Below are positions 664 through 24,850 of a stretch of 33,132 nt of DNA, in pieces. The notes below the pieces were generated by a model. It saw nothing but the letters and a program-made list of their open reading frames with translations. It made no database searches and was not told where the DNA came from. Source of the DNA: Candidatus Nomurabacteria bacterium RIFCSPHIGHO2_01_FULL_40_20 (GTDB lineage: Bacteria > Patescibacteriota > Minisyncoccia > Phycocordibacterales > UBA9973); NCBI GenBank assembly GCA_001786835.1, contig MFTO01000008.1, positions 1 through 33,132 of the forward strand, written 5' to 3'. Position 1 is the first letter of the stretch. Each line of letters opens with the position of its first letter. A program made the translations under genes and the position numbers.

Positions 664-1134
664 CTAGTCAAGTTTTTTAATACGCCTAATATGGCGCTCA
701 TCTTCAGAGAATTTTGTACTAAGAAAAAGCTCCACCGCGAATTTGGCTTCGTCTTCAGAAATAAAATTACCACCCAAAGATAAGACGTTTGCGTCATTGT
801 GCTCCCTAGCAAGTTTTATTATCTCAAAGCTATCTGACTTTTTTTCCCCAACATCTGGGAGTTCTTGACCATAGAAGACTGCAGCGCGAACTCCTTTAAC
901 TCTGTTTGCGCACATAGCTTCCCCTTGCCCAGACTTACCTGAAATTATTCCAAACGCACCTTTCTCGCTGGCAACACGTTCCGCTAGCGGTCTGATATAG
1001 TCTGGATAATCATCCGTAGCTACATAATTGTAAGGACCCATGTCCTCAATCTCATACCCGAGTAGAGAGAGATAAATTTTTAATTTCTCTTTTAATTCAT
1101 AACCTGCGTGATCTGTTGCTAAATATATTTTCAT
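664..1134 (-). CDS. rpiB: Ribose-5-phosphate isomerase B (RpiB/LacAB family)
   Basis: Interconverts ribose 5-phosphate and ribulose 5-phosphate in the pentose phosphate pathway. 156 aa, normal family length. Visible family features: ATDHAG at residues 6-11 (Asp8, His9 substrate contacts), the anion loop SGKSGQGEAMCANR at 65-78, and EHNDANVL at 110-117 (His111, Asn112). The usual E. coli catalytic cysteine of CGTGVG is Ser65 here, while Glu72 sits in a G-x-G-E motif like that of the mycobacterial type, where a glutamate is the base; activity is therefore still expected. The start ATG lies inside the right arm of a 68-base inverted repeat (1133-1200), so translation may be controlled by that structure. 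Confidence 0.93.
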   Translation of the reverse strand: MKIYLATDHAGYELKEKLKIYLSLLGYEIEDMGPYNYVATDDYPDYIRPLAERVASEKGAFGIISGKSGQGEAMCANRVKGVRAAVFYGQELPDVGEKKSDSFEIIKLAREHNDANVLSLGGNFISEDEAKFAVELFLSTKFSEDERHIRRIKKLD

Positions 1135-1200
1135 CCCGTTAGAAATTAATTAATTTATAATTTTTACTAATTTTCCCGTCCGTTGAATTTCTAACGGGAT
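1133..1200 (-). repeat. 68-base start-codon inverted repeat, copy 1 (rpiB leader)
   Basis: On the minus strand the element starts with ATCCCGTTAGAAATT (1200-1186) and ends with the exact reverse complement AATTTCTAACGGGAT (1147-1133), a perfect 15-bp stem. The last two bases are the A and T of the rpiB ATG. A middle segment AACGGACGGG (1184-1175) can pair instead with CCCGTT of the left arm, giving a local hairpin that frees the right arm. Same length and plan as the copies at 13161 and 24746. Confidence 0.9.
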
Positions 1201-1207
1201 TCATAAA

Positions 1208-2259: not shown

Positions 2260-5200
2260 TTATAAAACTTCCTCCTCGCTTGGCTCTGGCTCTGCGGGCC
2301 CGGGTTCCTGTATTATTTCCTCTTCCGGTTCTAATTCGGATTGAATTTCTTCTTCTTGATTAATAATCTCATCATATATTATATCATTTTCTTCTATTAC
2401 TGTGTCCTCCGTAGCCTCTGGCGTAGGAGAGATAACATCTTCTTCTAAAATTTCTTCAGTACTATCTTCCACAATTTCTTCCTCTTCTACTTCTTCCTCT
2501 GTATTTCCGTTATTATTGCTCTGATTAGAAATACTTTTTTCCTCCAAAATTTTCTTCAAGTCTTCTTCGTTGATACAAGTCTCGCCGATACATATTTCTT
2601 CCGTCGCCTCAAATCGCTCTCCCCTAAACACTTTGGCAAATATTTGACTGACTCCATTTTCAATATTTCCGAGCCACGCCCGCAACTTATCTCCAAAACT
2701 ATTTCCTTCGCTTTGGTCTTCGTTTGCAAAATCTTTAATTTCTTCTAACTGTAAATTAAGCTCGCCGATGGCACCCACTACATAAGGCATCATTCCACCC
2801 ATGGATAGAAATAGTCTATTTGTGCCATCTATCCACTGGCTTTTTTTTACTAAATCAGGGAATAATTCTTGCACTTCCTGAGCGATGAAACCGTATTTAA
2901 TCGGGTCGTTCGCGCCGTCGGTCTGCCAATAATAGGAAACAGGTCGAAGCTCTGAAACTTTTTCCAAAAGTCCAGTGCCGGAAAGAGTTTTTATATTTTT
3001 CTTGAGTGTCTGGTCGGATCCGCAAGTTGGACTGCCAGCATCGGCGGTAAAATTACAAGTAGAATTGGCGTCTTCGGTGCGGATTAGATTTGTAGCATCA
3101 GTGGTAGCGCTAGAGCCGACATGGAGCGCTACCGCGGGTGCAGAGTTTTGAATGCCGATTTCATTGTTCGCTAAATCTCCATACAAAGTGTCGCCGATAT
3201 TGAGTTCGTCGCTAGCTCCAACAGCTGTGGTATCAACATCATGACCGATTAAGATATTGCCACTTCCGGTAGTAACGGCATTACCAGCCTGAAAACCAAC
3301 GGCAACATTTGATCCGCCAGTAGCCGAAATAAGAGCGTCTTGGCCTATAGCCACATTTTGAGCGCCTGATATGACCGTACTAAGCGCATTTTTGCCGATA
3401 GCAAGATTGCCTTCTCCAGTAGTATTCGCATCTAAAGCATTCGGACCAATAGCGAAATTGTCGTCGCCTGTGTTAACTAACAACGCTTGGTATCCGATGG
3501 CAATATTGTTGTTCCCGATTAAATTCGCTCCTAGAGCATTGAGACCAATAGCTAGATTTGGCGTGCCGGAAGTATTTACATCGAGCGCGCCAAAACCTAT
3601 AGCAAAATTGTTACTTGCAGTGTTAACACGAAGAGAATCGTGCCCTATCGCTATGTTGGAGTCTCCAGAAATGTTTGTGGTAAGCGATTCGTGGCCAATG
3701 GCAAGGTTACTATCACCAATGGTATTGTTTGCAAGAGATAAACGACCAATAGCTAAATTGTGATTATTCGTATTGTCTTCAAGAGCTTGCGAACCAATAG
3801 CTAGGTTATTAAAACCTGTCTGATTTGCAGTTAAAGAATTGTAGCCAATTGCTAAATTAGTGGCACCTGTGGTATTTGCATCAAGAGCGTAAGATCCGAT
3901 TGCTAAGTTTGCGCTAGCAGTATTTAAGAGAAGAGCATTATATCCTATAGCCAAACTATCATCATCGTTCACATTGGCACCAAGAGCGCTAGAACCTATA
4001 GCCAAATTGCGAGTACCCGAAGTGTTGGCATCAAGTGCACTATCACCAATGGCTAAATTATTATCTCCGGTGCTTAAAAGAAGCGCTTGGTCGCCAATGG
4101 CAAGATTAGAATTTCCTGAAATATTTGCCCCAAGGGCATTCCGGCCGATCGCCAAGTTCGGCGTGCCCGTAGAATTATCATCAAGGGCATTAGAACCGAG
4201 GGCGATGTTGTTGCTGGCAGTGTTTAATGCCAAAGCGCTGTGGCCTATGGCAAGAATGTCATTACCTATCGTATTGGTGCCTAAAACGGAATTTTGGCCG
4301 ATAGCTATATTGCGAGTTCCTGAAGTATTAGAATCCATAGCATTGGCTCCGATTCCAGTGTTGTAATTTCCAGTATTTGCAAGTAGCGCTGAAACGCCGA
4401 TGGCTAAATTACTAAGTCCGCCTTGATTAGCTCCCAAGGCATCTACGCCAATAGCTACGTTGTGAGTACCTGTCGTATTCGCATCAAGAGCATTGGGACC
4501 GACGGCGAGATTGTAATTCCCGGTAGTCAAAAGCAGTGCTTGATAACCAACTGCAATATTAGAAGCGCCCGTCAGATTCGCGCCTAGAGCATTTACCCCA
4601 ATCGCCAAGTTTGGTGTGCCGGTAGAGTTTAAATCCAGCGCGCCGGAACCAATGGCAAGATTGTTGCTCACAGTGTTGTCTCCCAAGGCGTCATAACCTA
4701 TGGCTAAAATATCGTCCCCGGAACTGTTGGTGTAGAGCGAAGTGTAACCGATAGCTAAATTTCGAGCGCCGGTCGTATTTGTAAAGAGTGAGTTGTAACC
4801 GATGGCTAAATTGTTACTTCCAGTGCTGTTGTTGAGAGCAAAATTACCAATAGCAAGCAAGCCCGTACCGCTGGTGTTGTCATAGAGCGCTTGGACACCG
4901 ATAGCCAAGTTGTCGCTCGCAGTATTGCTCCGCAGAGCTTCCGCCCCAAAAGCAACGTTTTGGTCTCCAGTAGAAAGTAGAAGTGCTTGGTATCCTACCG
5001 CGGTATTCCAACTCCCCGTCAGGTTCGCGCCTAGAGCATTGAGACCGATAGCGAGGTTCGGCGTGCCGGTAGTATTGGCATCAAGCGCATTAGGTCCTAT
5101 AGCTAAGTTATTATCTCCGGTGCTTAAAAGAAGTGCTTGGTCGCCAATGGCAAGATTAGAATTTCCTGAAATATTTGCGCCGAGAGCATTTACACCAATA

Positions 5201-6318
5201 GCTAGGTTCGGTGTACCAGTGGTATTCACATCGAGCGCGTTCCTGCCTATTGCAATATTATTACTTGCAGTGGAAAGGCGCAGTGCCTGATATCCTATAG
5301 CGATGCCATTGTCACTTGAGATATTTCCAGCAAGAGAATCATTTCCAATGCCTATGTTGAACGAACCAGTAGTGTTGGAATCAAGTGAGCCACTACCTAT
5401 AGCGAGATTTTGTTGTGAAGCGTTTACAAGAAGCGCTTGATAACCGATGGCTATATTTTCATTGCCAACATTATCTGCGCTTAAAGATTGGTAGCCGATA
5501 GCTATGTTTAATGTGCCGATGACTCCTCCACCATCCAAAGCAAATGGCCCTATCGCTAGGTTGGGACCATCATCAGCGTTAAGTAAAGCGTCTTCGCCAA
5601 TAGCAATACTTTGAAATGCACCTACCCCATTCCCTAACGCGTTTTTGCCTATTGCTACATTCGTCAGACCGGAAATATTGGCGCCAAGAGCATTGGAACC
5701 TATAGCTATGTTGCTACTTCCATCTGTGTTTACATCAAGAGCGCCATAGCCTATGCCGATGTTGTCGTCCCCGATTGTATTATCATTCAAAACATTCTGT
5801 CCAAAAGCTATATTATACTGCCCGCCGATAGCTATAGCTGCTCCAGCTCCACTTCCGCAAAACATATTGAAATCAGTGGCGTAGTCGGTGATACAATCGC
5901 TTAAGCCATTTAAAGTGGTAGATCCACCCGTCACCAATTCAAATTCATCAGTAGTGGAATTGTAAGTGACCACATCGCCGTTTGAAGGTGTGGTAAATTC
6001 TGCTATCGGCATTGCTACAATTCCCTGCTCCTCGCCCCCGTAAAATTTTATTACCCCAGTCGTAAAATCCGTAACCGTGGTATCAAAATAAATTTCCCCG
6101 TTGGAGTCCACTGTCGGAGTAGCCGAGCTCGGCATGCCGAAAGTCACATAACAATTTGAATCCGAGGGTCCACATCCACCCCAAGCGGTACCCGTATCTC
6201 CCGGGTCTTGAATATTGTCCGAAGGTATAATAGGCGAAGCAGGGTTTCCGGCAAGCACGACAAAAGCCGAGGAGAGAAATAAAGCCAAAACATAAGCCAA
6301 AAACTTTTTCGCTTTCAT
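2260..6318 (-). CDS. Secreted repeat fibre with S74 peptidase (intramolecular chaperone) domain
   Basis: 1352-aa exported protein. Residues 1-24 form a signal peptide (KAKK then a hydrophobic run ending VVLAG). Residues about 165-1045 are roughly 50 tandem 17-residue units of the type N-L-A-I-G-x-x-A-L-x-x-N-T-x-G-x-x, like the head repeats of YadA/Hep_Hag proteins, which form trimeric left-handed beta-rolls. From Ser1101 (SDQTLKKNI) an S74 endosialidase-type chaperone domain follows, with the Ser and Lys pair used for self-cleavage, then SYYWQTD and GFIAQEVQELFPDLV. A coiled-coil-prone segment and a Glu/Pro-rich acidic tail (about 1240-1352) end the protein. No beta-barrel anchor, LPXTG or C-terminal membrane segment is seen, so attachment is unclear. 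Likely role is a surface fibre for adhesion (inference). Confidence 0.9.
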   Translation of the reverse strand: MKAKKFLAYVLALFLSSAFVVLAGNPASPIIPSDNIQDPGDTGTAWGGCGPSDSNCYVTFGMPSSATPTVDSNGEIYFDTTVTDFTTGVIKFYGGEEQGIVAMPIAEFTTPSNGDVVTYNSTTDEFELVTGGSTTLNGLSDCITDYATDFNMFCGSGAGAAIAIGGQYNIAFGQNVLNDNTIGDDNIGIGYGALDVNTDGSSNIAIGSNALGANISGLTNVAIGKNALGNGVGAFQSIAIGEDALLNADDGPNLAIGPFALDGGGVIGTLNIAIGYQSLSADNVGNENIAIGYQALLVNASQQNLAIGSGSLDSNTTGSFNIGIGNDSLAGNISSDNGIAIGYQALRLSTASNNIAIGRNALDVNTTGTPNLAIGVNALGANISGNSNLAIGDQALLLSTGDNNLAIGPNALDANTTGTPNLAIGLNALGANLTGSWNTAVGYQALLLSTGDQNVAFGAEALRSNTASDNLAIGVQALYDNTSGTGLLAIGNFALNNSTGSNNLAIGYNSLFTNTTGARNLAIGYTSLYTNSSGDDILAIGYDALGDNTVSNNLAIGSGALDLNSTGTPNLAIGVNALGANLTGASNIAVGYQALLLTTGNYNLAVGPNALDANTTGTHNVAIGVDALGANQGGLSNLAIGVSALLANTGNYNTGIGANAMDSNTSGTRNIAIGQNSVLGTNTIGNDILAIGHSALALNTASNNIALGSNALDDNSTGTPNLAIGRNALGANISGNSNLAIGDQALLLSTGDNNLAIGDSALDANTSGTRNLAIGSSALGANVNDDDSLAIGYNALLLNTASANLAIGSYALDANTTGATNLAIGYNSLTANQTGFNNLAIGSQALEDNTNNHNLAIGRLSLANNTIGDSNLAIGHESLTTNISGDSNIAIGHDSLRVNTASNNFAIGFGALDVNTSGTPNLAIGLNALGANLIGNNNIAIGYQALLVNTGDDNFAIGPNALDANTTGEGNLAIGKNALSTVISGAQNVAIGQDALISATGGSNVAVGFQAGNAVTTGSGNILIGHDVDTTAVGASDELNIGDTLYGDLANNEIGIQNSAPAVALHVGSSATTDATNLIRTEDANSTCNFTADAGSPTCGSDQTLKKNIKTLSGTGLLEKVSELRPVSYYWQTDGANDPIKYGFIAQEVQELFPDLVKKSQWIDGTNRLFLSMGGMMPYVVGAIGELNLQLEEIKDFANEDQSEGNSFGDKLRAWLGNIENGVSQIFAKVFRGERFEATEEICIGETCINEEDLKKILEEKSISNQSNNNGNTEEEVEEEEIVEDSTEEILEEDVISPTPEATEDTVIEENDIIYDEIINQEEEIQSELEPEEEIIQEPGPAEPEPSEEEVL
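3240..5820 (-). repeat. About 50 tandem 51-bp coding repeats in the fibre gene
   Basis: The repeat region is built from 51-bp units with a visible higher-order period of three units (types GANISG, LLLSTGD, DANTTGTP in turn). Some stretches are nearly identical at the DNA level: about 75 bases around 4055-4140 match 5105-5185 with only a few changes. That points to recent duplication or gene conversion, and unit number could vary between strains. Confidence 0.85.
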
Positions 6319-13155: not shown

Positions 13156-13160
13156 AATGA

Positions 13161-13228
13161 ATCCCGTTTAGAAATTTTGATAACGGGAATAAGGATTAAA
13201 TTATTAATATTAAATTTCTAAACGGGAT
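13161..13228 (+). repeat. 68-base start-codon inverted repeat, copy 2 (def leader)
   Basis: ATCCCGTTTAGAAATTT (13161-13177) is the exact reverse complement of AAATTTCTAAACGGGAT (13212-13228), a 17-bp stem whose last two bases are the A and T of the def ATG. Middle segment AACGGG (13182-13187) can pair with CCCGTT of the left arm. Relative to the rpiB and hpf copies both arms carry one extra T/A pair, a compensatory change that supports pairing. Confidence 0.9.
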
Positions 13229-13805
13229 GAAGCAAATCTTGCAAAAAGAAGAACTGGTCTTGCGTAAAGTCGCGAAAGAAGTTCCCCTATCGCAAATCAA
13301 ATCTCCTAAAATTCAAAAAATACTAAAAGAAATGTCTGTCTCTCTCAAAAGTCAAGCCGATGGGGTGGCTATCGCGGCTCCGCAGATAGGATATTCTCTG
13401 TGCATCTTCGTCGTCTCGGGAAAAGTTTTTGAAAAAGATTTTTTGAAAAAAAGAACCTTCCCGACGTCCAACGTCGGGGAAAACGTCGGGGAAACGTCTA
13501 AAGATAACAACACCTCTCAGAGAGATTCCGCTGTGAAGAATATGGTTTTCATCAACCCGAAAATCTCCAAACTCTCAAAAGAGAAAGAATGGACTCCGGA
13601 AGGATGCCTCTCGGTGCGTTGGCTTTACGGCAAAACCTATCGCTCAAAAAAAGCGAGCATATCTGCTTACGATGAAAATAGCAAGAAATTTACCCGTGGG
13701 GCTTCGGGACTTCTGGCGCAAATTTTTCAGCACGAGACGGATCACTTAAACGGTATACTTTTTATAGACCATGCAAAAGATATCAAAGAGGAACTACCGA
13801 AGTAG
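13227..13805 (+). CDS. def: Peptide deformylase
   Basis: Metal-dependent enzyme that removes the formyl group from new proteins. 192 aa. All three motifs are visible: GVAIAAPQIG (residues 46-55), EGCLSV (125-130, metal ligand Cys127) and QHETDHLNG (168-176, metal ligands His169 and His173, catalytic Glu170). Residues about 77-104 form an extra loop between the first two motifs; its DNA holds a GC-rich palindrome (13459-13480) plus a further copy of AACGTCGGGGAA. The start ATG sits in the right arm of the 68-base repeat. It is followed by fmt, its functional partner in formyl-Met metabolism, 29 bases downstream. Confidence 0.95.
   Translation: MKQILQKEELVLRKVAKEVPLSQIKSPKIQKILKEMSVSLKSQADGVAIAAPQIGYSLCIFVVSGKVFEKDFLKKRTFPTSNVGENVGETSKDNNTSQRDSAVKNMVFINPKISKLSKEKEWTPEGCLSVRWLYGKTYRSKKASISAYDENSKKFTRGASGLLAQIFQHETDHLNGILFIDHAKDIKEELPK
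13459..13499 (+). repeat. GC-rich palindrome inserted in def
   Basis: TCCCGACGT (13459-13467) pairs with ACGTCGGGGA (13471-13480), then AACGTCGGGG repeats directly (13482-13491) and GACGTT-related sequence continues. It encodes the NVGENVGET part of a loop absent from typical Def. It belongs with the GTCGGGG-type palindromes at 17329 and 27888. Confidence 0.7.
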
Positions 13806-14876: not shown

Positions 14877-16610
14877 CTAAAAAACTTCTTCTTTGTAGCA
14901 ACGGTCACAATAAATTATTTCCGGTCTATCTAGAGAATAGGTGGTCTCAAATTCGTTTTCACATCCATCTTTCATGCATTTTCGATGGTAAAGTTTAATA
15001 CCAGTTCTCTGTTTTAAACGCTCAAAGGTTCTGCAGTTCGGGCAAAGACGTGGTAATGGTAAATTCATCTTGCGGTAAAGAATAAGTTCGTTTTCTAAAA
15101 CTTTAAAAGCTGTGGTACAAAGCTGGTTACATTTTCCGTTATGCTCGCATCTTATAACTTTATTCACAAAATCATCCCCTACGTCTGCAATGCTGTTTGG
15201 AATATTCATTGTCTCAATATCTATCTTGTAATTTCTCTCCGTGTCTTCTTCCCAAACATAGCCCTCTTCTATGACCTCTCCCTTAGTTAAAGGGAAATAT
15301 TCTTGTGCCAGCGTAGTATTGTAAGAAACTGGTGAAAGTTCGCTCGGGAAAAATTCCCCGTATTTATAAACCCTACCCTTTTTGTCTATATAAGGCATTT
15401 CGTTCATTTGTGTTTTTATTCTCTCCACTATATTTTCATACTCTTCCTTGCTGTATTGTTTATTCAAAATACAATACTGTTTGCCTCGCAAACTAATACA
15501 ACCAAACAAATTCTCTGACCCGCGAGTACAAAACATCGAATATTCCAGATCATGCACATTTTCCTGACATAGTACGCAGAACTTAATATTTTGGATACCA
15601 ACTCCACACGAATGAGATTCGTAGACTAGCTCGCTTGCGTCTCCCCAGATTGAATAATCCCAGCAATCTTTACACCCCGGAATTTCCAGTAAATTCTGGC
15701 AGTAGCGCAAATTCTGCCCCTCGCGAATCAAAAAAGAATTGAAAACTTCTTTGGAATGCTCGATATAGTTGCCCGAAACACTAGTATTTTGAAAACCTTG
15801 GATAAATTTATTCGGAAACTTCATCCAAAAATCATAGACTTCTTTCTTTATTTTTTGTAAGTCTTCATAAGAACCTAAATTAAATGACTTTATTTTTTTT
15901 AAATATTCTTCTTTGGAGTATTCTTCGTTGAAAATACAGTAGGACTTATTGCGCAAATTCACACAGCCAAAGCAATCTTGACATCCCGAGCAATTTTTAG
16001 AAAACATCATATTAAAAGAGCTCTCACATTGGGAAGAAAACACCGAATTAGAACACTGGGCGAGCCAAAACCCTTCATAACAATATTCGCATTTAGAAAC
16101 ATGAGAGATGTCCATACAGAAACAAGACTGGTTTATACCGTGGCCATACATGCAGTCTTCTGGCTCTTTGGCGTTGAAAACTAGATAGCTATTCTTTGGA
16201 CTACTGATGTGGTTCACATATGGACTATTCACTTGAAACGTCACACCTAAATTTCTAACCGGCACTTTTTTAAGGAGTTCAAAGAATTGAGTGAAAAACG
16301 GTTTGGAAAAATCATAGTCCTCTCCATACTCCATCGGGTCCCACTGGTCACTCTGCCATACCTCGTTCTCGTATACTGTCATCTCAGACTCTGGAGAAAA
16401 CATAGAAAAAATCTCTTTACCTGAAAAATCACTTTTCTTCTTGTAAAGCACTCTCTCGTTTCTAAATGTAAACCTCCTCTGCGCTCGGCACAGATGGCAA
16501 AACGTCGGTGGAGGAACTTTTATTTTCTCGTAAAAATTTTTGTCTTCGCTATCTATAACGAAATCTTGCTTACAATTTTGGCATATTCTATTTTGTGATT
16601 TATGTTCCAT
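14877..16610 (-). CDS. Cysteine-rich double-zinc-finger protein, paralogue 1
   Basis: 577 aa, function unknown; one of four paralogues in this window. Order of parts: N-terminal treble-clef-like finger with Cys10, Cys13, Cys38, Cys41 (CQNCKQDFVI ... VPPPTFCHLCRAQRR); conserved DQWDPMEYGEDYDFSKPFF near residue 90; a Cys-rich middle with two copies of a motif like FGCVNLRNKSYCIFNEEYSKEEY (here near residues 215-240, again as FGCISLRGKQYCILNKQYSKEEY near 370-395); a C-terminal finger region (NLPLPRLCPNCRTFER) and YCDRCYKEEVF end. No signal peptide or membrane segment, so cytoplasmic. Cys pairs suggest zinc binding (inference). Start ATG is preceded by weak AGAAAAG and by an inverted repeat at 16620-16682. 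Confidence 0.85.
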   Translation of the reverse strand: MEHKSQNRICQNCKQDFVIDSEDKNFYEKIKVPPPTFCHLCRAQRRFTFRNERVLYKKKSDFSGKEIFSMFSPESEMTVYENEVWQSDQWDPMEYGEDYDFSKPFFTQFFELLKKVPVRNLGVTFQVNSPYVNHISSPKNSYLVFNAKEPEDCMYGHGINQSCFCMDISHVSKCEYCYEGFWLAQCSNSVFSSQCESSFNMMFSKNCSGCQDCFGCVNLRNKSYCIFNEEYSKEEYLKKIKSFNLGSYEDLQKIKKEVYDFWMKFPNKFIQGFQNTSVSGNYIEHSKEVFNSFLIREGQNLRYCQNLLEIPGCKDCWDYSIWGDASELVYESHSCGVGIQNIKFCVLCQENVHDLEYSMFCTRGSENLFGCISLRGKQYCILNKQYSKEEYENIVERIKTQMNEMPYIDKKGRVYKYGEFFPSELSPVSYNTTLAQEYFPLTKGEVIEEGYVWEEDTERNYKIDIETMNIPNSIADVGDDFVNKVIRCEHNGKCNQLCTTAFKVLENELILYRKMNLPLPRLCPNCRTFERLKQRTGIKLYHRKCMKDGCENEFETTYSLDRPEIIYCDRCYKEEVF

Positions 16611-16619
16611 ATCTTTTCT

Positions 16620-16682
16620 ATCCCGATTCTGATTAATCAGAATCGTGGATCCTCGATTTCTTAAAATTTAAGAAATCGGGAT
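16620..16682 (-). repeat. 63-base inverted repeat upstream of cysteine-rich paralogue 1
   Basis: Outer arms ATCCCGATT and AATCGGGAT close two perfect inner palindromes: CGATTTCTTAAA with TTTAAGAAATCG, and CGATTCTGATT with AATCAGAATCG (minus-strand order). The inner and outer stems share CGATT/AATCG, so only one arrangement can form at a time. It ends ten bases before the ATG. The ends match ATCCCG...CGGGAT of the 68-base family, but the interior differs. Confidence 0.8.
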
Positions 16683-16715
16683 AGTTCTGACAGTTTCGGT
16701 TTTCCACTTTTTCAT

Positions 16716-16743
16716 TTGACATATCTTTATGATTTGCTATAAT
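16716..16743 (+). promoter_or_regulatory. Consensus promoter with no plus-strand gene
   Basis: TTGACA (16716-16721), 16-base spacer, TATAAT (16738-16743). Both boxes are perfect consensus, the best promoter seen in the window, yet the next genes are on the minus strand. Predicted start is about 16750. Confidence 0.75.
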
Positions 16744-16749
16744 GGTAAT

Positions 16750-16801
16750 ATCCATAAGGAAACGCATCTCGTAGTCTTTCGTGTCTACGCGGTGCGTTTC
16801 C
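16750..16801 (+). ncRNA. Candidate short structured RNA from the orphan promoter
   Basis: Right after the promoter comes a long hairpin: GGAAACGCA (16758-16766) with TGCGTTTCC (16793-16801), a 3x3 internal loop, then CGTAG (16770-16774) with CTACG (16785-16789). There is no ORF. The 3' end is uncertain because only GTTTAG follows; a T-run is found at 16822-16827, in which case the RNA would overlap the 3' end of the NYN gene in antisense. The same hairpin could serve as the terminator of the NYN gene. Confidence 0.5.
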
Positions 16802-16809
16802 GTTTAGAC

Positions 16810-17295
16810 TCATCTCTTAAGTTTTTTGCTTAAATTATCCATTGAATATATTTTCTCTTTAGCTTCTTTCTTTAAAAGTTTTGAACAAGTTTTTACATAG
16901 GGACTTAAAACCAGTAAAAGTTTATCGTTTTCATATAAATATCTAACGAGAGAATAGAAATCTCCGTCGCTAGTTACAATAATCGCTTTGTCGTAATTAT
17001 CTTTTTCAAGAATAGCATAAAGTACTAGATCAGCATCACAATTACCCTTAACTTTACCTTCTCCATCAAGAATGACTGGTTTGAATATTAAAATATATCC
17101 TGCTTTTTGCAGGCTAGAATAAAGTTTTTGATTTGATTGAATAAATCCAATAAAAATATATGCTGTAGTAATATCGTACTTTTCTTTAAGGTGCACTCTA
17201 AATTTTATCCAGTCTAAATCCCAACCAAGAGATTTTATTCCTAAATGAACATTCTGTGCGTCTATAAAAGCATAATTATTTGATTCAACTTTCAT
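16810..17295 (-). CDS. NYN/LabA-type PIN-fold ribonuclease
   Basis: 161 aa. NYN domains are metal-dependent RNases of the PIN-like fold. The acidic active site is visible: Asp12 in FIDAQN, Asp87 and Asp89 in NCDADLVLYAI, and Asp110 and Asp112 in IVTSDGDFYSLVRYL. It fills nearly the whole protein, so there is no extra targeting domain, only a basic C-terminal tail (SKKLKR). It lies between two cysteine-rich paralogues on the same strand. A TAATAT box six bases before the ATG suggests its own leaderless promoter. It ends in TGA, supporting the standard code. Confidence 0.88.
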   Translation of the reverse strand: MKVESNNYAFIDAQNVHLGIKSLGWDLDWIKFRVHLKEKYDITTAYIFIGFIQSNQKLYSSLQKAGYILIFKPVILDGEGKVKGNCDADLVLYAILEKDNYDKAIIVTSDGDFYSLVRYLYENDKLLLVLSPYVKTCSKLLKKEAKEKIYSMDNLSKKLKR

Positions 17296-17301
17296 AGTTA
17301 T

Positions 17302-17307
17302 ATATTA
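17302..17307 (-). promoter_or_regulatory. -10 box of the NYN gene, leaderless
   Basis: Minus strand TAATAT, six bases before the ATG. No clear -35; the spacing to the ATG is the main support. Confidence 0.4.
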
Positions 17308-17328
17308 CCATACTTAATAAACCTCCTG

Positions 17329-17366
17329 CCCCGACGCTTTGGTCGGGGTCCCGACAGAATCGTCGG
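17329..17366. repeat. Twin GC-rich palindromes (GTCGGGG type)
   Basis: CCCCGAC (17329-17335) with GTCGGGG (17342-17348), then CCGAC (17351-17355) with GTCGG (17362-17366). They stand between the NYN gene and cysteine-rich paralogue 2 in otherwise AT-rich sequence. The first closely resembles the palindrome inside the GH130 gene at 27888-27908. Confidence 0.75.
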
Positions 17367-17374
17367 AATTGATA

Positions 17375-19099
17375 TCAATAGATTTCATTCTGATAACATT
17401 TCTCACAATACACTACTTCTGCTCGGTCGGGAGCGTATGAAGTTTCAAATTCCACTTCGCACTTACCTTCGTGGTGTGTATGCTTTTTATCACACATACA
17501 CTTCCGATGATAAAAATTAGGCGAGTTTCTTAGTGAGAGACGTTCATAATGTCGACAATTGGTACACAACCGAGGTAAAGGAATGTTCATTCTTTTGCAA
17601 AAATCAAGTTCCATTTGTATTATACGGAACGCGCCAGTGCATTCGTGCTTACAATTTCCAGTATGTTTACACTCAATTACCTCGTTAAGAATATTTACAT
17701 CTACATCTCTGATATGGTTAGGAATCTGCGTGGCAATTAAAGTAATTTTGTAATCTTGCTTTACGGTTTCATACCACAAAAATCCTACAACTTCCGCCTC
17801 TTCCTTATTGAGCGGAAAAAATTCATAAGCCTGTGTTATTTGATACGGAAAAGGAGAGAGCGAAGCCGGAAAAAATTCTCCATATTCTTTTGTACTTTTC
17901 ATATGTTTAATTATCTTTGGCACGATTTTTTCATACTCCTCTTTTGTGTATTGTTTGTTTAAAATACAGTGCTGTTTTTTACGAAGAGAAACACATCCGA
18001 ACAGATCAGAAGAATTATGGCAAAAAACACAATAACTTAAATTTTGCACATTGACATAGGATTGGACAGTAAATTTAACATTGTAAACACCCTCTCCGAC
18101 AATTAAAGATTCATAGACAAGTTCCGTGTTATCACCCCAATTAGTATAATCGTAGCAATCTTTAACTGGCCCAGTAAGGATATTTTGGACGAATTTACTA
18201 TCCTCTACTCCTCTTACACGATAACAGTTTTTTGAGTTTTTTGATTCATAAATGTAATCGCCGGAAGCGTTTACGTTGTGATACCCGTGTATATACTTTT
18301 GTGGGTAATTCAACCAGTGTTGATATGCTTTGACTTTTAAATTTTCAATTGATTTGTAGGATCCTAAATTAAACTTATTAATTTTTTTCAAGTATTCTTC
18401 TTTGCTGTATTGTTCATTAAAAATGCAATAAGATTTATTACGAAGACCAATTGAAGCAATACAGCTATTGCAACCAACACAATCTTTACATAAAATCATT
18501 TCTTGGCAACTCTCGCAGTCAACTGAGAAGAACGTTTTATAACAAATAATTGTATTTACGTTCCCGTAAGAAAGTTCACATCCATTTGTCATATGACTAT
18601 CAAAACACTGCTTTGATGCTTGGTCCCAGATAAGATAGGCAGAATCCTCTGTATATGCGACACCTCTGCATAAATAACAATTTTTTATACTACTGGCGTT
18701 AGCACAATAATGACTGTTTACTACATTGGTCATTGAGTGAGAAGGCATTGGTACTTTGGAAAGCAACTCTTTGAATTGCTCAAAAAAGGGCTTGGAAAAA
18801 TCATAATCTACACCGTACTCAACAGGGTCCCAGGCATCTGAAATCCAATAATCTCGATCATAAATTTTTACCGGACTTTCTTCTGGAAACAAGGAAAAAA
18901 TTACTTCCCCCGTGCGCGCATCTTTTTTGCGAAACATATGCCAATCGTTACGCCAAGCAACCATGCGTTGCAGGCGACACTCCGGGCAAAAAGTCGGCGG
19001 TGGAACTTTGATTTTCTCATAAAATAAAAAATCGTCTGGCTCGATTACAAAGTCTTTTTTACAATTTTGGCATATTCTATTTTCGCTTTTATATTCCAT
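17375..19099 (-). CDS. Cysteine-rich double-zinc-finger protein, paralogue 2
   Basis: 574 aa, function unknown, full-length homologue of paralogue 1. N-terminal finger CQNCKKDFVI ... VPPPTFCPECRLQR; DAWDPVEYGVDYDFSKPFFEQ; middle motifs IGLRNKSYCIFNEQYSKEEY and FGCVSLRKKQHCILNKQY; C-terminal CKHTGNCKHECTGAF, then IPLPRLCTNCRHYERL, an extra His/Cys-rich insert KCMCDKKHTHHEGKC, and YCEKCYQNEIY. The His-rich insert is not in paralogue 1 and may add a metal site. A good Shine-Dalgarno (AGGAAA, four bases before ATG) supports the start. Upstream is a hairpin at 19108-19145. Ends in TGA. Confidence 0.85.
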   Translation of the reverse strand: MEYKSENRICQNCKKDFVIEPDDFLFYEKIKVPPPTFCPECRLQRMVAWRNDWHMFRKKDARTGEVIFSLFPEESPVKIYDRDYWISDAWDPVEYGVDYDFSKPFFEQFKELLSKVPMPSHSMTNVVNSHYCANASSIKNCYLCRGVAYTEDSAYLIWDQASKQCFDSHMTNGCELSYGNVNTIICYKTFFSVDCESCQEMILCKDCVGCNSCIASIGLRNKSYCIFNEQYSKEEYLKKINKFNLGSYKSIENLKVKAYQHWLNYPQKYIHGYHNVNASGDYIYESKNSKNCYRVRGVEDSKFVQNILTGPVKDCYDYTNWGDNTELVYESLIVGEGVYNVKFTVQSYVNVQNLSYCVFCHNSSDLFGCVSLRKKQHCILNKQYTKEEYEKIVPKIIKHMKSTKEYGEFFPASLSPFPYQITQAYEFFPLNKEEAEVVGFLWYETVKQDYKITLIATQIPNHIRDVDVNILNEVIECKHTGNCKHECTGAFRIIQMELDFCKRMNIPLPRLCTNCRHYERLSLRNSPNFYHRKCMCDKKHTHHEGKCEVEFETSYAPDRAEVVYCEKCYQNEIY

Positions 19100-19107
19100 A
19101 CTTTCCT

Positions 19108-19145
19108 AATTACCTAACTTTTGCGACCGCTAGAGTTAAGTAATT
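19108..19145 (-). promoter_or_regulatory. Leader hairpin of cysteine-rich paralogue 2
   Basis: Minus strand: AATTACTTAACT (19145-19134) pairs with AGTTAGGTAATT (19119-19108) with one mismatch. The loop holds TAGCGGTCGCA, which differs at two positions from TAGCGATAGCA in the loop of the hairpin before paralogue 4. The stem ends just before the AGGAAA ribosome site. Confidence 0.55.
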
Positions 19146-19154
19146 TATGTTAAC

Positions 19155-20909
19155 TTAGTACACCTCTTGTTGATAACATTTTTCACAATAAACTATTTCC
19201 GGGCGCTCGGGAGCATAACCAGTCTTAAATATTTCCGGGCAAGGAGAATCTTTATGGTCATGGGATACGGTATTTTTGTATTTACCTGTTTCATCAGAAA
19301 TACCGGCACACATACAGGTTCTCTCGTGCAAAAATAACTTGAGTCTGTCGCTGATTCGGCGTTCGAATCTGCATTCGTTACATATTCTAGGAAGTGGAAG
19401 TTTTTCTTTTTTGTAAAAAATTAGTTCATTTCCTAATATACGGTAAGGATTCTTGCAATTTTCACATTCCAATACTTCTTTTAGAATTTGTTCGATACCA
19501 TCATGAGCGGAATCTGGGATTTCCGAAGCCTTTTGGGTGATTTTATACTCGCCCTTTTCGGTTTCTACCCATGCGTAGTTTTTTGCTTCTGCTTCTTCTT
19601 TGGTTATAGAAAAATGCTGAGTTGCTAAAGTATTGTTATATCCAAAAGGTGAGAACTCTAACGGGAAAAACTCTCCATATTTGTAAACTAAACCTAGAGA
19701 ATCTATATAAGGCATTTCGTCCATATGGCGTTTGATTTTTGGTACAAGTTCTTCGTACTCCTCTTTTGTATATTGTTTATTAAAGATGCAATATTGCTTC
19801 TTCTTCAGCCCTACACAACCGAAACAATCAGAACAACTAAAAAGATGCACACAGTATTCCAAATTCCTGCAAGCCGGCCAGCAATTTCTGGAAAGCTTGT
19901 TATTGTAAGAATTCTCTCCACATTCTATGATTTCATAACAAAGCTCTGTATCTTCACCCCAATTACTGACATCGTAATTGTCTTTATTACCCGGCAATTG
20001 CATGTATTGGCAAAAGCGCATATTTTCGCTTCCTCTGATTAAATAACTGTCGTTTACATATTTACAATCTGTGACATAAGAACCAGTTGAATTTAAATTT
20101 CTTACCCCTTGCTGATGTCTGGTAATTTGCGTGTCCCAAAAAGATCTGGCTTTCTTCCTTGCTTCTTCCAGTCCGGAAGCCGTATCGAGTCGCATTTTAG
20201 CAATTTCTTTTTCATATTCTTCTTTTGTATATTGCTGGTTAAATATGCAATGAGAAGATTTACGTAAATTAACACAACCAAAACAATCACTGCACCCGAG
20301 ACAGTCTCTGGAGAACCAAACATTCCTAGAGTCCGCAGACATTATCGTGAAATAACATTGATAGCATTTAGAAAGCCAGAAACACTCGTAACACCGCTCG
20401 GATTCATTTATATGAGAATTATCCACGCAATCCTTGCAACGATCAATCGCATTGCCATACATACAATCCTCCGAGTAGCTAGAATTAACGACCAAGTAGC
20501 TATTTTTCAACGCCGTGGCATTGAAGGCGTACGGGCTGTTGACCATTCTGATAACATTAAAATTATACATGGGGACTTTTTTCTCGAGCTCTTGCTGTTG
20601 TTCAAAAAAACTTCTAGAGAAATCATACTCTTGACCGTATTCCATAGCATCCCAATTATCGCTAAGCCAAGCATCCCGAGTAATAATTTTTCTCCCGCTT
20701 TCCGCCGGATAAGTAGAAAAAATATCCTGGCCAGTCAGAGCATCTTTCACTTTAAAAAGCTTCCTTTCATTTCTAAAAGCCAACCTCCTCTGTGCTCGGC
20801 ACAGATGGCAAAAAGTCGGTGGAGGAACTTTTATTTTTTCATAAAACGAAAAATCATCCGGCTCGATGGTGAAATCATTTTTACAATTCTGACAATTTTT
20901 GGTTTCCAT
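19155..20909 (-). CDS. Cysteine-rich double-zinc-finger protein, paralogue 3
   Basis: 584 aa, function unknown. N-terminal finger CQNCKNDFTI ... VPPPTFCHLCRAQRR; DNWDAMEYGQEYDFSRSFFEQ; middle motifs FGCVNLRKSSHCIFNQQY and FGCVGLKKKQYCIFNKQYTKEEY; C-terminal CENCKNPYRI, LPLPRICNECRFERR, a longer insert with CMCAGISDETGKYKN, and YCEKCYQQEVY. The CENCKNPYRI stretch makes the similarity of the C-terminal and N-terminal fingers plain. It starts METKNCQNC without the usual KSE residues. No Shine-Dalgarno is seen. The gap to paralogue 2 is 55 bases, so the two may be co-transcribed. Confidence 0.85.
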   Translation of the reverse strand: METKNCQNCKNDFTIEPDDFSFYEKIKVPPPTFCHLCRAQRRLAFRNERKLFKVKDALTGQDIFSTYPAESGRKIITRDAWLSDNWDAMEYGQEYDFSRSFFEQQQELEKKVPMYNFNVIRMVNSPYAFNATALKNSYLVVNSSYSEDCMYGNAIDRCKDCVDNSHINESERCYECFWLSKCYQCYFTIMSADSRNVWFSRDCLGCSDCFGCVNLRKSSHCIFNQQYTKEEYEKEIAKMRLDTASGLEEARKKARSFWDTQITRHQQGVRNLNSTGSYVTDCKYVNDSYLIRGSENMRFCQYMQLPGNKDNYDVSNWGEDTELCYEIIECGENSYNNKLSRNCWPACRNLEYCVHLFSCSDCFGCVGLKKKQYCIFNKQYTKEEYEELVPKIKRHMDEMPYIDSLGLVYKYGEFFPLEFSPFGYNNTLATQHFSITKEEAEAKNYAWVETEKGEYKITQKASEIPDSAHDGIEQILKEVLECENCKNPYRILGNELIFYKKEKLPLPRICNECRFERRISDRLKLFLHERTCMCAGISDETGKYKNTVSHDHKDSPCPEIFKTGYAPERPEIVYCEKCYQQEVY

Positions 20910-20921
20910 AAGTCTTTTATA

Positions 20922-20995
20922 TTATCTCATAATTAATCCACGAGTGAAACTCACGAACTAAATAATGAGGATAACCAACTTTCATTGGTTATCCT
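20922..20995 (-). terminator. Hairpin terminator of the small membrane gene, with possible alternative pairing
   Basis: AGGATAACCAA (20968-20978) and TTGGTTATCCT (20985-20995) form an 11-bp perfect stem six bases after the stop of the 21001-21210 gene. On the minus strand it is followed by the T-rich but imperfect CATTATTTAG. The downstream side TTATCCTCATTATT can also pair with AATTATGAGATAA (20934-20922) just before paralogue 3, so two structures compete. Confidence 0.6.
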
Positions 20996-21000
20996 AACTT

Positions 21001-21210
21001 TTAATGCTGGAAAATTTCTTTCTCAGTTAAGGGGTACGGCTGCATCTGGTGAAAGATTTGAGTACGAATATAGTCAGGATCTTTCATCAGTTCGATTTGC
21101 TTTTTAAGCAGATCATTTTCCTTTTCACACTGTATGCCCTTATCGTACTGATAAATAGAAAACACAGTTATAAGAAGGAGGACTACCCGGCAAAGCAATA
21201 ACTTTTTCAT
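21001..21210 (-). CDS. Small single-span membrane protein, possibly DivIC/FtsB-like
   Basis: 69 aa from the ATG at 21208-21210. A short basic start (MKKLLLCR) leads into one membrane segment (about residues 8-22), then a coiled-coil-prone stretch ending in LLKKQIELMKDPDYIRTQIF. The K-D-P-D-Y-I pattern after a short coiled coil resembles the FtsB/DivIC cell-division proteins, but the protein is shorter and no other division gene is near, so this is only a suggestion. A good promoter (TTGACT, 17 bases, TATTAT) lies upstream and excludes a longer TTG start at 21243. A terminator hairpin follows directly. Confidence 0.65.
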   Translation of the reverse strand: MKKLLLCRVVLLLITVFSIYQYDKGIQCEKENDLLKKQIELMKDPDYIRTQIFHQMQPYPLTEKEIFQH

Positions 21211-21234
21211 AATTATAAGGATTTGTTTAATTAA

Positions 21235-21263
21235 ATAATACAATCTTTTTTACTAATAGTCAA
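21235..21263 (-). promoter_or_regulatory. Promoter of the small membrane gene
   Basis: Minus strand: TTGACT (21263-21258), 17-base spacer, TATTAT (21240-21235). The leader is about 20 bases. It is divergent from the regulator promoter at 21339-21367. Confidence 0.7.
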
Positions 21264-21286
21264 AAATAATACTGAAAAATTGCTTT

Positions 21287-21297
21287 ATTTACTGTAA
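21287..21297. promoter_or_regulatory. Possible operator between divergent promoters
   Basis: TTTACTGTAAA is a small perfect palindrome around one base, lying between the two divergent promoters and close to ATTGCTTTATTT and ATGCTTATTTT, which are similar to each other. It could be the binding site of the regulator encoded next to it; this is inference only. Confidence 0.3.
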
Positions 21298-21338
21298 AAA
21301 TGCTTATTTTATAAGATTAAAATAGTGTCAAATAAAAG

Positions 21339-21367
21339 TTGACAAAAATACTCTAATTTGCTAAGAT
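21339..21367 (+). promoter_or_regulatory. Promoter of the TrmB-like regulator, leaderless
   Basis: TTGACA (21339-21344), 17-base spacer, TAAGAT (21362-21367), six bases, ATG at 21374. Strong match, and the RNA should start at the A of ATG. Confidence 0.8.
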
Positions 21368-21373
21368 ATAAGT

Positions 21374-22147
21374 ATGGACTTAAAAAACTTTGAACAACTG
21401 GGGCTTAACCAAACCGAGATCAAAATACTCAAGTGTATCTTTGAATTCGGCACCATATCCCCCGCGCTCGTCGCCAAGCAAACTGGGCTCAAGCGCCCGA
21501 CGGTGTATGCTGGTGCGGAGGGCTTGATAGAATCTGGATTTATCCGAGAAGATATTTCCGGAAAAAATATTCGCTACACAGCGCTTTACGAAACTGGTTT
21601 TAAAAACTATTTAATATCTCAAAAAAGAAAATTAGCAGAAAAAGAAGCGTTGATAACTGAACTTGCCAATACTCTAGAGAAAACTCCCCGTCCGCGCGGA
21701 TACAATATACCAAAGGTGACAAGAATAGAAGGCAAAGAAGAAATATTGGATTTTTTATATACTCAAACACCCGTGTGGAATGAAAGTATAATAAAGACAC
21801 ATGCCCACACATGGTGGGGCTTTCAAGACCACATTTTTGTTGAAGATAAAGAATATAGAAAATGGATTAAATGGTACTGGAATACCGCGCCAGAAAAAAT
21901 AGACTTAAATCTTTTTTCTAATGACTCGGAAATTGAAAAAACACGTGAAGTGCAGACTATAGATAGGCGAAGACATATAAAATTTTGGAAAGGTGATAAA
22001 ATCACTGCAACAGAGTGGATTGTCGGAGAATACATTATCACTATCGTACTCGATGGCACACATCACACTCTCATAGAAACCCGCGACCAAATTCTAGCCG
22101 AGAACCTGCGTAACGTTTTCAAATTCGCTTGGAGTGCTGTTTCGTAA
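21374..22147 (+). CDS. TrmB-like winged-helix transcriptional regulator
   Basis: 257 aa. An N-terminal winged helix (residues about 5-75) begins LGLNQTEIKILKCIFEFG and has the recognition-helix region SPALVAKQTGLKRPTVYAGAEGLIESGFI, here quoted in parts as VAKQTGLKRPTVYAG. The remainder carries a TrmB-type effector region, with EGKEEILDFLYTQTP near 117-131. The natural ligand cannot be read from sequence. It is the only plus-strand gene among the cysteine-rich genes and faces the small membrane gene, sharing a 160-base divergent promoter region that may hold its operator. Start is fixed by the promoter six bases upstream. Confidence 0.85.
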   Translation: MDLKNFEQLGLNQTEIKILKCIFEFGTISPALVAKQTGLKRPTVYAGAEGLIESGFIREDISGKNIRYTALYETGFKNYLISQKRKLAEKEALITELANTLEKTPRPRGYNIPKVTRIEGKEEILDFLYTQTPVWNESIIKTHAHTWWGFQDHIFVEDKEYRKWIKWYWNTAPEKIDLNLFSNDSEIEKTREVQTIDRRRHIKFWKGDKITATEWIVGEYIITIVLDGTHHTLIETRDQILAENLRNVFKFAWSAVS

Positions 22148-22155
22148 AAAGAAAT

Positions 22156-22350
22156 TTATTTTTTCTGAATCATCGGCACGCCAAGATCGCGACAGATTTT
22201 TCTGCCAGTAAAGGTATTTATTTCAGAATGTCTCGGGATAGAAGAAACCCTGCTGTTTTCTGGATTAAAATAAATACTATGGGAATTTCCCTCTCTTAGA
22301 AAGACCACACCATTTTTTCGGAGATGTAAGATTAGGTCGGTGCGCTTCAT
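22156..22350 (-). CDS. hicA: HicA-family toxin, second module
   Basis: 64 aa, a complete small HicA. Typical features: MKRTDLILHLRKNGVVFLREG, the active-site region GNSHSIYFNPE with His24, and the closing pattern SIPRHSEINTFTGRKICRDLGV that occurs in many bacterial HicA proteins. It follows its antitoxin gene by 13 bases on the same strand. It is only distantly similar to the HicA at 9960-10199, so the two modules are not a recent duplication. Confidence 0.88.
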   Translation of the reverse strand: MKRTDLILHLRKNGVVFLREGNSHSIYFNPENSRVSSIPRHSEINTFTGRKICRDLGVPMIQKK

Positions 22351-22363
22351 AGAGAGAAAGAAA

Positions 22364-22582
22364 TTAAAAAGATAGTACTTCCTTTTTTATAAAACCAGGA
22401 CCTGCTTCTTTTAAAACTACGGAACGCTGGGTTTCTAGCACTAGCTCTAAGGCTTCTTTCAAGTTTTCGCGAGCCTCGCTCAAAGTGCGCCCTTGGGTAT
22501 TAACCCCAGGCACTTCCTCAATCCAAGCGGCATAAAACTTGCCTACCTTTTTAAACAAAGCTGTAAAATTTCTTGATTTCAT
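22364..22582 (-). CDS. hicB: HicB-family antitoxin, second module
   Basis: 72 aa. The partial RNase-H-like HicB fold is recognisable: FTALFKKVGKFYAAWIEEVPGVNTQG, with the family W-I-E-E-V-P-G-V motif at residues 20-27, then the helix TLSEARENLKEALELVLE. It is short and lacks a visible C-terminal DNA-binding domain, so autoregulation may be weak or absent. The ATG lies six bases after a TAAAAT box. It ends close to hicA; the pair stands between the regulator and paralogue 4. Confidence 0.88.
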   Translation of the reverse strand: MKSRNFTALFKKVGKFYAAWIEEVPGVNTQGRTLSEARENLKEALELVLETQRSVVLKEAGPGFIKKEVLSF

Positions 22583-22588
22583 AGATTT

Positions 22589-22617
22589 ATTTTACCATAT
22601 TTGATTTTTTAAAACAA
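22589..22617 (-). promoter_or_regulatory. Promoter of the second hicB-hicA pair, leaderless
   Basis: Minus strand: TTGTTT (22617-22612), 17-base spacer, TAAAAT (22594-22589) with a TG extension (TGGTAAAAT), six bases, ATG. Confidence 0.65.
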
Positions 22618-22620
22618 ATT

Positions 22621-24306
22621 CTAATAAACCTCCTGCTGGTAACATTTTTCGCAATAGATTATAGGCGCATAAGATTCTGTGTAGACTGTCTCTACTTCTA
22701 AGTCACACTTTGAACAATTTCGTTTGATTATTTTTAATAATGGACGCTTCTGTAAGCGTTTAGTGTGACGCACATCAAAGCAAGCCCGAGATAACGGCAA
22801 GTCCATTCTTCTATAGAAAGATAATTCGTTTTCCGTAATTCTATACGCTCCTGTGGAATAAGCTTTATCTTTTTCCACGCAACCTATTACTTCTTTCAGT
22901 ATAGAGTCTGTAACTTCTGCTATAGTTTCTGGAAGATCTTTGCCTTCTATAGTTATATCATAATCTTTCTTTTCCCGGTCTTTCCATCTATAACCTCTCT
23001 TTAGAGCTTCTTCTTTAGACAAAGGGAAAAAGTCTACGGCAGCCGTTTCATTGTAAGCAAAAGGAGAAATATCAGGTGGGAAAAATTCTCCATATTCACT
23101 TGTATTTTTCATATGCTCTATTATTTTTTCTTTCATTTTTTCGTATTCTTCTTTACTGTATTGTTTGTTTAAAATAGAATATTCGCCCTTCTTTAGTCCT
23201 ATACAACCAAAACAATTCGCGGAACTTGGACATGAATCGCAATAATAAAGATCATGGGCACTCATCCAACACTGAGAGCAAAAGAAAATTCTGGAATCAT
23301 TTATACCGCAGTTAGCTGATTCATAGATAAGTTCTGAAGAATCTCCCCACTGAAAATGATCCATGCAATCTTGTTCATTGAATGCAAAATAAATATATCT
23401 GCAGTCTTTTAAATTCACGCAGCTGAAAGAATTTTTTACATTTTCGCAATTCAAAAACCAATTACCTAAAACTTTACTTGATTTTAAGGACATAATCGCC
23501 TTTTGGGGAAACTTCTTCCTAAATTCGGCAAACTTAGTCTCCATTTGAGTAGTGCCTAAAACCGTGTTCAACTTAAGTTCCTTGAGTCTCCTAGAATATT
23601 CTTCTTTAGAATATTGCTCATTAAAAATACAAAATTGCTTGTTAATTAAATTCACACAACTGACACAGTTCGAGCAGTTACGACAGGAGTATAGAAAAAA
23701 TGAATCTCTACATTCATTTGATTCTTGAGAGAATAATGTTTTATAGCATTTATTACAGTCTATACATTCATAACAAAGTTCGGAATAATTTACGTTAAAA
23801 CAATCAACGCAATTTTTAATACCAAGAGCTGTATAGATGTAAAGCGAATCTTCGCAGTCAGAAGCTCGGAAAACCATGTAGCAATTCTTTAAGTCATGGA
23901 CACGATGAGTGTATTCACTATTTATTGAAAAACCTTGCCGAACAAGCGCCATGCGAGGAACCTTATTAAATAGTTCTTTAAACTGTTCAAAGAACGGTTT
24001 TTTGAAATCATAATCCATGCCATACTGGTACGGATCCCATTGATCTGAGTAAAATTCTTTCGTTTCATATACTGGAAATGGTGCTTCCGGCGGATACATA
24101 CTAAAAATATCGACTCCACTCAAGTCAGATTTTCTTTTGTAGAATACTCGTTCGTTAGCACCAATCATCCGCCTTATTTGCCTACACTCTGGACAAAAAG
24201 TCGGCGGAGGAACTTTGATTTTTTCGTAAAAAGAAAAGTCATCCGGCTCGATGGTGAAATCTTGCTTGCAGTTCTGACAATTTTTAGTTTCGCTTTTATG
24301 TTCCAT
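22621..24306 (-). CDS. Cysteine-rich double-zinc-finger protein, paralogue 4
   Basis: 561 aa from the ATG at 24304-24306, chosen because GGAG stands five bases before it and MEHKSE matches paralogue 1; a start six codons upstream is less likely. N-terminal finger CQNCKQDFTI ... VPPPTFCPECRQIRR; DQWDPYQYGMDYDFKKPFFEQ; middle motifs VSCVNLINKQFCIFNEQYSKEEY-like (CVNLINKQFCIFNEQY) and FGCIGLKKGEYSILNKQY, where the Cys of YCILN is Ser; C-terminal part ENELSFYRRMDLPLSRACFDVRHTKR has lost one Cys of the second finger (CFDV instead of CPNC), so that site may be damaged. Ends with YCEKCYQQEVY. Function unknown. Confidence 0.85.
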   Translation of the reverse strand: MEHKSETKNCQNCKQDFTIEPDDFSFYEKIKVPPPTFCPECRQIRRMIGANERVFYKRKSDLSGVDIFSMYPPEAPFPVYETKEFYSDQWDPYQYGMDYDFKKPFFEQFKELFNKVPRMALVRQGFSINSEYTHRVHDLKNCYMVFRASDCEDSLYIYTALGIKNCVDCFNVNYSELCYECIDCNKCYKTLFSQESNECRDSFFLYSCRNCSNCVSCVNLINKQFCIFNEQYSKEEYSRRLKELKLNTVLGTTQMETKFAEFRKKFPQKAIMSLKSSKVLGNWFLNCENVKNSFSCVNLKDCRYIYFAFNEQDCMDHFQWGDSSELIYESANCGINDSRIFFCSQCWMSAHDLYYCDSCPSSANCFGCIGLKKGEYSILNKQYSKEEYEKMKEKIIEHMKNTSEYGEFFPPDISPFAYNETAAVDFFPLSKEEALKRGYRWKDREKKDYDITIEGKDLPETIAEVTDSILKEVIGCVEKDKAYSTGAYRITENELSFYRRMDLPLSRACFDVRHTKRLQKRPLLKIIKRNCSKCDLEVETVYTESYAPIIYCEKCYQQEVY

Positions 24307-24316
24307 CTTCACTCCA

Positions 24317-24813: not shown

Positions 24814-24850
24814 TTATCCTTTGATTATATCATCCGCTTTTACGTCTCAC

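Follow-up and report, generated by a model that had tools for sequence, protein, structure and literature searches.

A probable MITE-like palindrome inserted on start codons, and duplicating them, in Nomurabacteria and other Patescibacteria

In the 33,132-nucleotide stretch of Candidatus Nomurabacteria DNA analysed here (the window), the genes rpiB, def and hpf each begin within the right arm of a palindrome, which raises the question of whether these palindromes are RNA switches acting on translation or mobile DNA that came to rest on start codons. An earlier note on the sequence had placed the three starts inside inverted repeats of exactly 68 nt, had pointed to a middle segment that could pair with the left arm instead, and had offered both a switch and a mobile palindrome bringing its own ATG as readings. 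The features concerned are the following.

664-1134, minus strand: rpiB (RpiB, Pfam PF02502)
1130-1133, minus strand: TGAA, gene-side copy of the target duplication, within the rpiB start ATGAA (from sequence)
1133-1200, minus strand: palindromic element at rpiB, inverted repeat 1133-1147/1186-1200, 15-bp arms, 100% matched
1135-1198, minus strand: core of the rpiB element, CCCGTT..AACGGG
1175-1184, minus strand: AACGGACGGG, interior alternative partner of the rpiB 5' arm (from sequence and strand-specific conservation)
1200-1203, minus strand: TGAA, upstream duplication copy at rpiB (ATGAAT 1204-1199 in gene sense; from sequence)
13157-13162, plus strand: upstream duplicated hexamer ATGAAT at def (gene copy ATGAAG, 13227-13232)
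13161-13228, plus strand: palindromic element at def, arms 13161-13177/13212-13228, 17 bp, 100% matched
13163-13226, plus strand: core of the def element
13180-13187, plus strand: ATAACGGG, interior alternative partner of the def 5' arm (from sequence and strand-specific conservation)
13227-13805, plus strand: def, peptide deformylase (Pfam PF01327)
14877-16610, 17375-19099, 19155-20909 and 22621-24324, all minus strand: CxxC paralogues
24355-24747, minus strand: hpf, ribosome hibernation factor (hibernation-promoting factor, Pfam PF02482)
24746-24813, minus strand: palindromic element at hpf, arms 24746-24760/24799-24813, 15 bp, 100% matched
24748-24811, minus strand: core of the hpf element
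24787-24795, minus strand: AAAACGGGG, interior alternative partner of the hpf 5' arm (from sequence and strand-specific conservation)
24812-24817, minus strand: upstream hexamer ATAAAT at hpf, a decayed duplication (gene copy ATGAAC, 24747-24742)
24824-24829, minus strand: -10 box TATAAT at hpf, 6 nt 5' of the upstream hexamer (from sequence and orthologue comparison)

The placement of the three starts inside 68-nt inverted repeats was borne out, with perfect arms of 15, 17 and 15 bp at rpiB, def and hpf, respectively, and an interior segment able to pair with the left arm was present in all three. At each gene the right arm ends with the AT of the ATG, the G lying just beyond it. The window contains 11 exact 13-mer inverted repeats with loops of 20-60 nt, all of them from the arms of these elements, compared to 11 such repeats summed over 100 first-order Markov windows (0.11 per window). 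Elsewhere in the window, positions 14877-24324 hold a cluster of four paralogues, cysteine-rich (CxxC) proteins that are each about 570-580 aa long, and positions 2260-6318 (minus strand) encode a 1352-aa protein with many NLAIGxxAL-type repeats, the C-terminal part of which resembles an endosialidase-chaperone domain.

We searched the source genome (a 551-kb assembly, 78% complete) by pattern and found a fourth close copy of 66 nt at dnaG, as well as two further copies, at aspS and rplS, that belong to a variant class. The identical length thus holds for the three copies in the window but not as a rule: 68 nt is a size class, and the cores of the start-codon set in relatives range from 57 to 79 nt. 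A pattern search of 100 relatives detected the palindrome in 33, nearly all of the same genus (Nomurabacteria), while the reversed-pattern control was almost always zero. Together, the related genomes carry more than 100 copies, and de-duplication left 82 with the right arm directly before the ATG that opens an ORF of 30 codons or more; since the search required intact arms, it under-counts decayed copies, and conservation of the arms is unusable as a score of selection. The genomes are all draft or metagenome-assembled, and orthologous copies are non-independent. The genes behind the 82 copies are unrelated housekeeping genes with no common function or ligand theme, including dnaG, rpsI, rpsB, rplI, rplD, infB, aspS, metG, leuS, murJ, rarA, gatC, pilT and pilB (names mostly read from sequence, with nine proteins confirmed with Pfam). 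The same gene usually has the identical subclass across species in the case of metG, rarA, gatC, pilT, pilB and mltG, which suggests old, retained insertions.

The bases that flank the palindrome carry the main evidence for its origin. In gene sense the layout is R-TNNA-Y-CCCGTTAGAA...TTCTAAYGGG-R-TNNA, a short, non-coding element with the ends YCCCGTTAGAA / TTCTAAYGGGR (end pair CCCGTTAGAA / TTCTAACGGG) and a terminal repeat of 12-bp perfect arms. When the upstream copy of the start was compared with the gene, the +4 base (after the ATG) was the same in 55 of 60 pairs (24.3 expected; 0 of 20000 shuffles), the +5 base in 56 of 60 (52.3 expected), and the +6 base at chance (23 of 60; 23.4 expected). 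Identity at +4 is the mark of a target duplication of 4 bp, which is exact in 56 of 88 start-codon copies and in 9 of 12 copies located inside ORFs. In a few copies an upstream GTG is paired with a downstream ATG, and ATA with ATA was also seen; both patterns would follow from a TNNA duplication with the outer base pair forming part of the element. A GTGGAC...GTGGAT copy has a C-G outer pair. The same ends in other lineages are flanked by the non-ATG duplications GTATAC, GTTCAC, GTCAAT and GTAAAC. No duplication was found in the variant class of 22 among the 82 copies, in which TACNTGT stands upstream and the right arm contains AATGGG. In three copies (loci L070, L100 and L034) both the upstream and the gene-side ATG are replaced by ATA; there, an in-frame ATG within the element may be the start, as in MEISNG-/MKISNG- before a RodA/FtsW-like protein.

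Orthologous genes provide the sites as they look without the palindrome. The site is uninterrupted in 28 of 32 other hpf orthologues and in most of about 29 other rpiB orthologues. The GAPDH-linked, 70% identical rpiB orthologue at locus L286 reads TAATTTTT-ATGAAAATATAT with no element, and the same stretch in the window reads TAATTT-ATGAAT-[element]-ATGAAAATATAT. Among further rpiB orthologues, one starts with GTG behind a similar element, a second has a possible remnant, and a third bears a copy from a different subclass that is decayed and reversed. Given these empty sites at both genes, insertion is a simpler reading than a conserved architecture. Element-free hpf orthologues usually have a TATAAT -10 box about 6-8 nt before the ATG and, because the box is so near, are apparently leaderless; in hpf orthologues with the element, the same -10 box precedes the upstream duplicated hexamer. 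TGN-TATAAT was found upstream of 33% of copies compared to 3% of shuffles, and the distance from the TGN-extended -10 box to the upstream ATG was most often exactly 6 nt (21 copies). Several window genes also have TATAAT-like boxes, about 6-8 nt ahead of the start codon, which suggests that leaderless transcripts may be common in this lineage.

Within the genus, the 116 distinct copies comprised 88 at start codons, 12 inside ORFs and 16 elsewhere, whereas only 2.9% would be expected at start codons from the TNNA sites of the window that are intergenic or at starts. The start-codon copies are AT-rich (mean GC 30%) with lengths uniform modulo 3 (27, 28 and 33), and the in-ORF copies are GC-rich (mean GC 63%) with a length divisible by 3 in 12 of 12. 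At loci L266-L281 (Nomurabacteria), GC-rich copies of 48, 66 and 69 nt lie in conserved ORFs, to which they add short peptides. Because the in-ORF duplications are not ATG-like, the target itself leaves the start-codon bias unexplained, and the bias reflects retention, or else an unrecognised second targeting mode.

The palindrome also extends beyond the genus: many of the ultra-small Patescibacteria have copies with matching ends, duplications and positions at gene starts. A GTDB scan, taking one genome per species and requiring an ATG, returned at least 119 stretches, spread over many groups of Patescibacteria. Among the matches listed, 95 of the 118 ATGs begin an ORF of 60 codons or longer, compared to 25% of random ATGs. 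When an ATG was not required in the sampling of other lineages, 12 of 43 copies were at start codons and 31 were not. Palindromes on start codons also occur in a few MAGs with the labels Phycisphaerae, Sedimentisphaerales and Omnitrophica, among others (L328, L335, L370, L393 and L411), possibly by transfer or mis-binning. Four IMG/VR contigs carry the palindrome (L434-L437); these viral-collection contigs could be carrying it from host to host, or could be host DNA that was wrongly assigned.

Taken together, a mobile palindrome fits these observations better than an RNA switch. Mobility is indicated by the duplication, the empty sites, the unrelated genes, the in-ORF copies and the phylum-wide spread; the part of the earlier proposal that gave way is that the element brings its own ATG, as it duplicates that of the target instead. 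By anatomy the palindrome is MITE-like, being short and non-coding, with terminal inverted repeats, a target duplication (except in the TACNTGT class) and presence or absence among hpf and rpiB orthologues, and its in-ORF population behaves like Rickettsia palindromic elements. A partial search found no autonomous transposon with the same ends, and no transposase, in the loci read, for which reason no named transposon family can be claimed, and pairs of terminal repeats 0.3-4 kb apart, considered as an autonomous element, proved merely to be neighbouring short copies. We regard the 68-nt repeats as probably copies of a non-autonomous MITE-like palindrome that inserted on start codons, duplicated them and was kept as a leader. 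An insertion of this kind would enter a TNNA target on the start codon (A-TGNA) and duplicate TGNN. One copy of the start would stay at the old site, right behind the old promoter where present, and the other, adjoining the right end of the palindrome, would be the start codon used now, so that leaderless genes or closely spaced operon genes would gain a 5' leader of 60-80 nt. The transposition itself would lie in the past and would be the work of a transposase, and selection would presumably have retained the start-codon copies. Since the target outside genes is not ATG-specific, it is most likely that these copies were kept as functioning leaders in a single orientation.

The alternative closest to the earlier note is an RNA switch: the 5' arm would pair with an interior CTAACGGG-like segment, leaving the start free, or with the right arm, hiding it, and would so regulate translation. 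We consider such a switch unlikely. The interior complement to the 5' arm matches better than chance (mean best match 5.57 of 8; shuffled interiors gave 4.34 and the reverse motif 4.23) and is conserved in gene sense only, and the orientation of the element to the gene is nearly fixed, which together probably indicate an interior function with polarity. The predicted probability of the local hairpin was likewise above that with shuffled interiors (0.024 versus 0.003). In silico folding at equilibrium nevertheless gave the long stem a mean probability of 0.96 over the 82 copies; it hides the AU of the AUG, which was on average 21% unpaired, and at rpiB it reached -19.7 kcal/mol compared to -9.6 kcal/mol with the right arm open and the local hairpin formed. 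The conservation of the local hairpin on the gene-sense strand stands, and with the long stem ahead by about 10 kcal/mol at rpiB the hairpin is a weak competitor, conserved strand-specifically. Covariation, which the earlier note had proposed as a check, is present in the arms: positions 11 and 12 are Watson-Crick in 81 and 79 of 82 copies (71.7 and 65 expected), positions 1-10 being largely fixed by the search pattern. Pairing is at chance from position 13 on, so covariation is confined to the 12-bp terminal repeat, and it does not discriminate between the readings, because transposition preserves arms as well as RNA function does. Changes in the right arm are mostly C to T, with 23 G.U cells against 1 A.C at position 4, and leave the sense RNA able to pair, but most of the G.U cells come from one class and hence from few events; transitions in the interior complement show no clear wobble preference (12 compatible, 10 incompatible). 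Placement and orientation gave a divided answer, as copies in the genus lie mostly at starts, with one reversed (and decayed), whereas many in other lineages lie away from them. The lack of a common function or ligand theme among the genes also speaks against a switch, and Rfam 15, compared with the window and eight loci, yielded no match to a described RNA family. Control by a leader peptide from the upstream ATG was rejected, as the ORF that starts there ends ahead of the gene in 45 of 50 cases compared to 44.6 when interiors are shuffled, showing no constraint. A Shine-Dalgarno motif in the interior was weakly enriched in class 1 only (25% versus 12%).

If the mobile palindrome was kept as a leader, translation would have to pass the stem that hides the AU. 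In our view this would most likely occur by cleavage of the stem by RNase III, which is encoded in the source genome; initiation might instead use transcripts or folding intermediates whose 5' arm is either absent or engaged in the local hairpin. We propose only tentatively that, across the phylum, the start-codon palindrome is a portable leader whose stem gates translation, being opened by RNase III or the local hairpin, and which makes leaderless housekeeping genes leadered and open to post-transcriptional control.

The element might alternatively be a mobile promoter, kept because transcription starts within it, 3' of the 5' arm, an idea with a precedent in Correia elements (PMC10969869) that we hold to be rather improbable here. 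A TGN with at least 5 of 6 matches to TATAAT was found in 32% of the TACNTGT class compared to 7% of shuffles, and six copies of that class (L014, L080, L090, L117, L170 and L176) have the strong extended -10 box TGTTATAAT 33-35 nt before the ATG. Yet the classes of the window copies were not enriched (0.07 versus 0.05 and 0.06 versus 0.08), and for many copies a native -10 box is already present upstream; an internal promoter as a general function was rejected, the enrichment being confined to the TACNTGT class.

It is very unlikely that we are dealing with a REP/BIME-type palindrome moved by a RAYT (Y1, HUH) transposase. The palindromes are small and Y1 transposases are common in the genus; however, TTTCTAACGGG-type ends were within about 1.5 kb of Y1 genes in 0 of 30 sampled loci, the 78%-complete source assembly gave no Y1 match, and Y1 counts did not correlate with palindrome copy number (Spearman 0.07). 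Target duplications, present here, are not expected of HUH transposition. A vertically inherited cis-regulatory RNA leader that was never mobile, its ATGNN repeat being functional, would account for a gene often having one and the same subclass across species, but is scarcely credible given the empty orthologous sites, the copies before unrelated genes, the in-frame in-ORF copies with duplications, and the occurrence of these ends in distant phyla next to duplications other than ATG (GTATAC, GTTCAC and GTCAAT).

Our literature search, for which most subscription journals were out of reach, found no published description of the palindrome. Rickettsia palindromic elements are small mobile palindromes that insert in frame into unrelated genes (PMC10969869), a habit shared here by the GC-rich copies only, the window copies not being in ORFs. 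Those elements, set apart here by description, measure about 150 bp compared to about 48-80 nt and belong to a different phylum, and the present palindrome, unlike them, combines a common terminal repeat, CCCGTTAGAA, and a TNNA duplication with a second, AT-rich population on start codons. The Correia/NEMIS elements of Neisseria are MITEs located just 5' of genes, some with promoters, whose terminal repeats are cleaved by RNase III (PMC10969869). By description they share the placement just upstream of genes, but the review (PMC10969869) does not describe them as inserting at the start codon and duplicating it. REP/BIME/REPIN sequences with RAYT are likewise abundant short bacterial palindromes, from which the present element differs in its target duplication and in that no RAYT link was found. 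Translational riboswitches and RNA thermometers also combine a start-codon stem with a competing upstream pairing; the present element differs in the absence of an Rfam match and of a ligand or function theme, in having an identical stem before unrelated genes, and in its hallmarks of mobile DNA.

Such palindromes could be mistaken for riboswitches or, within ORFs, for genuine protein sequence. If our reading is correct, this would be a mobile element with the start codon as its main surviving insertion site, where the duplication itself preserves the function of the gene, and it would offer a natural route from a leaderless gene to one with a 5' leader. One family of elements would then have reshaped both leaders and, through in-frame peptides, proteins across a major and mostly uncultured bacterial lineage.
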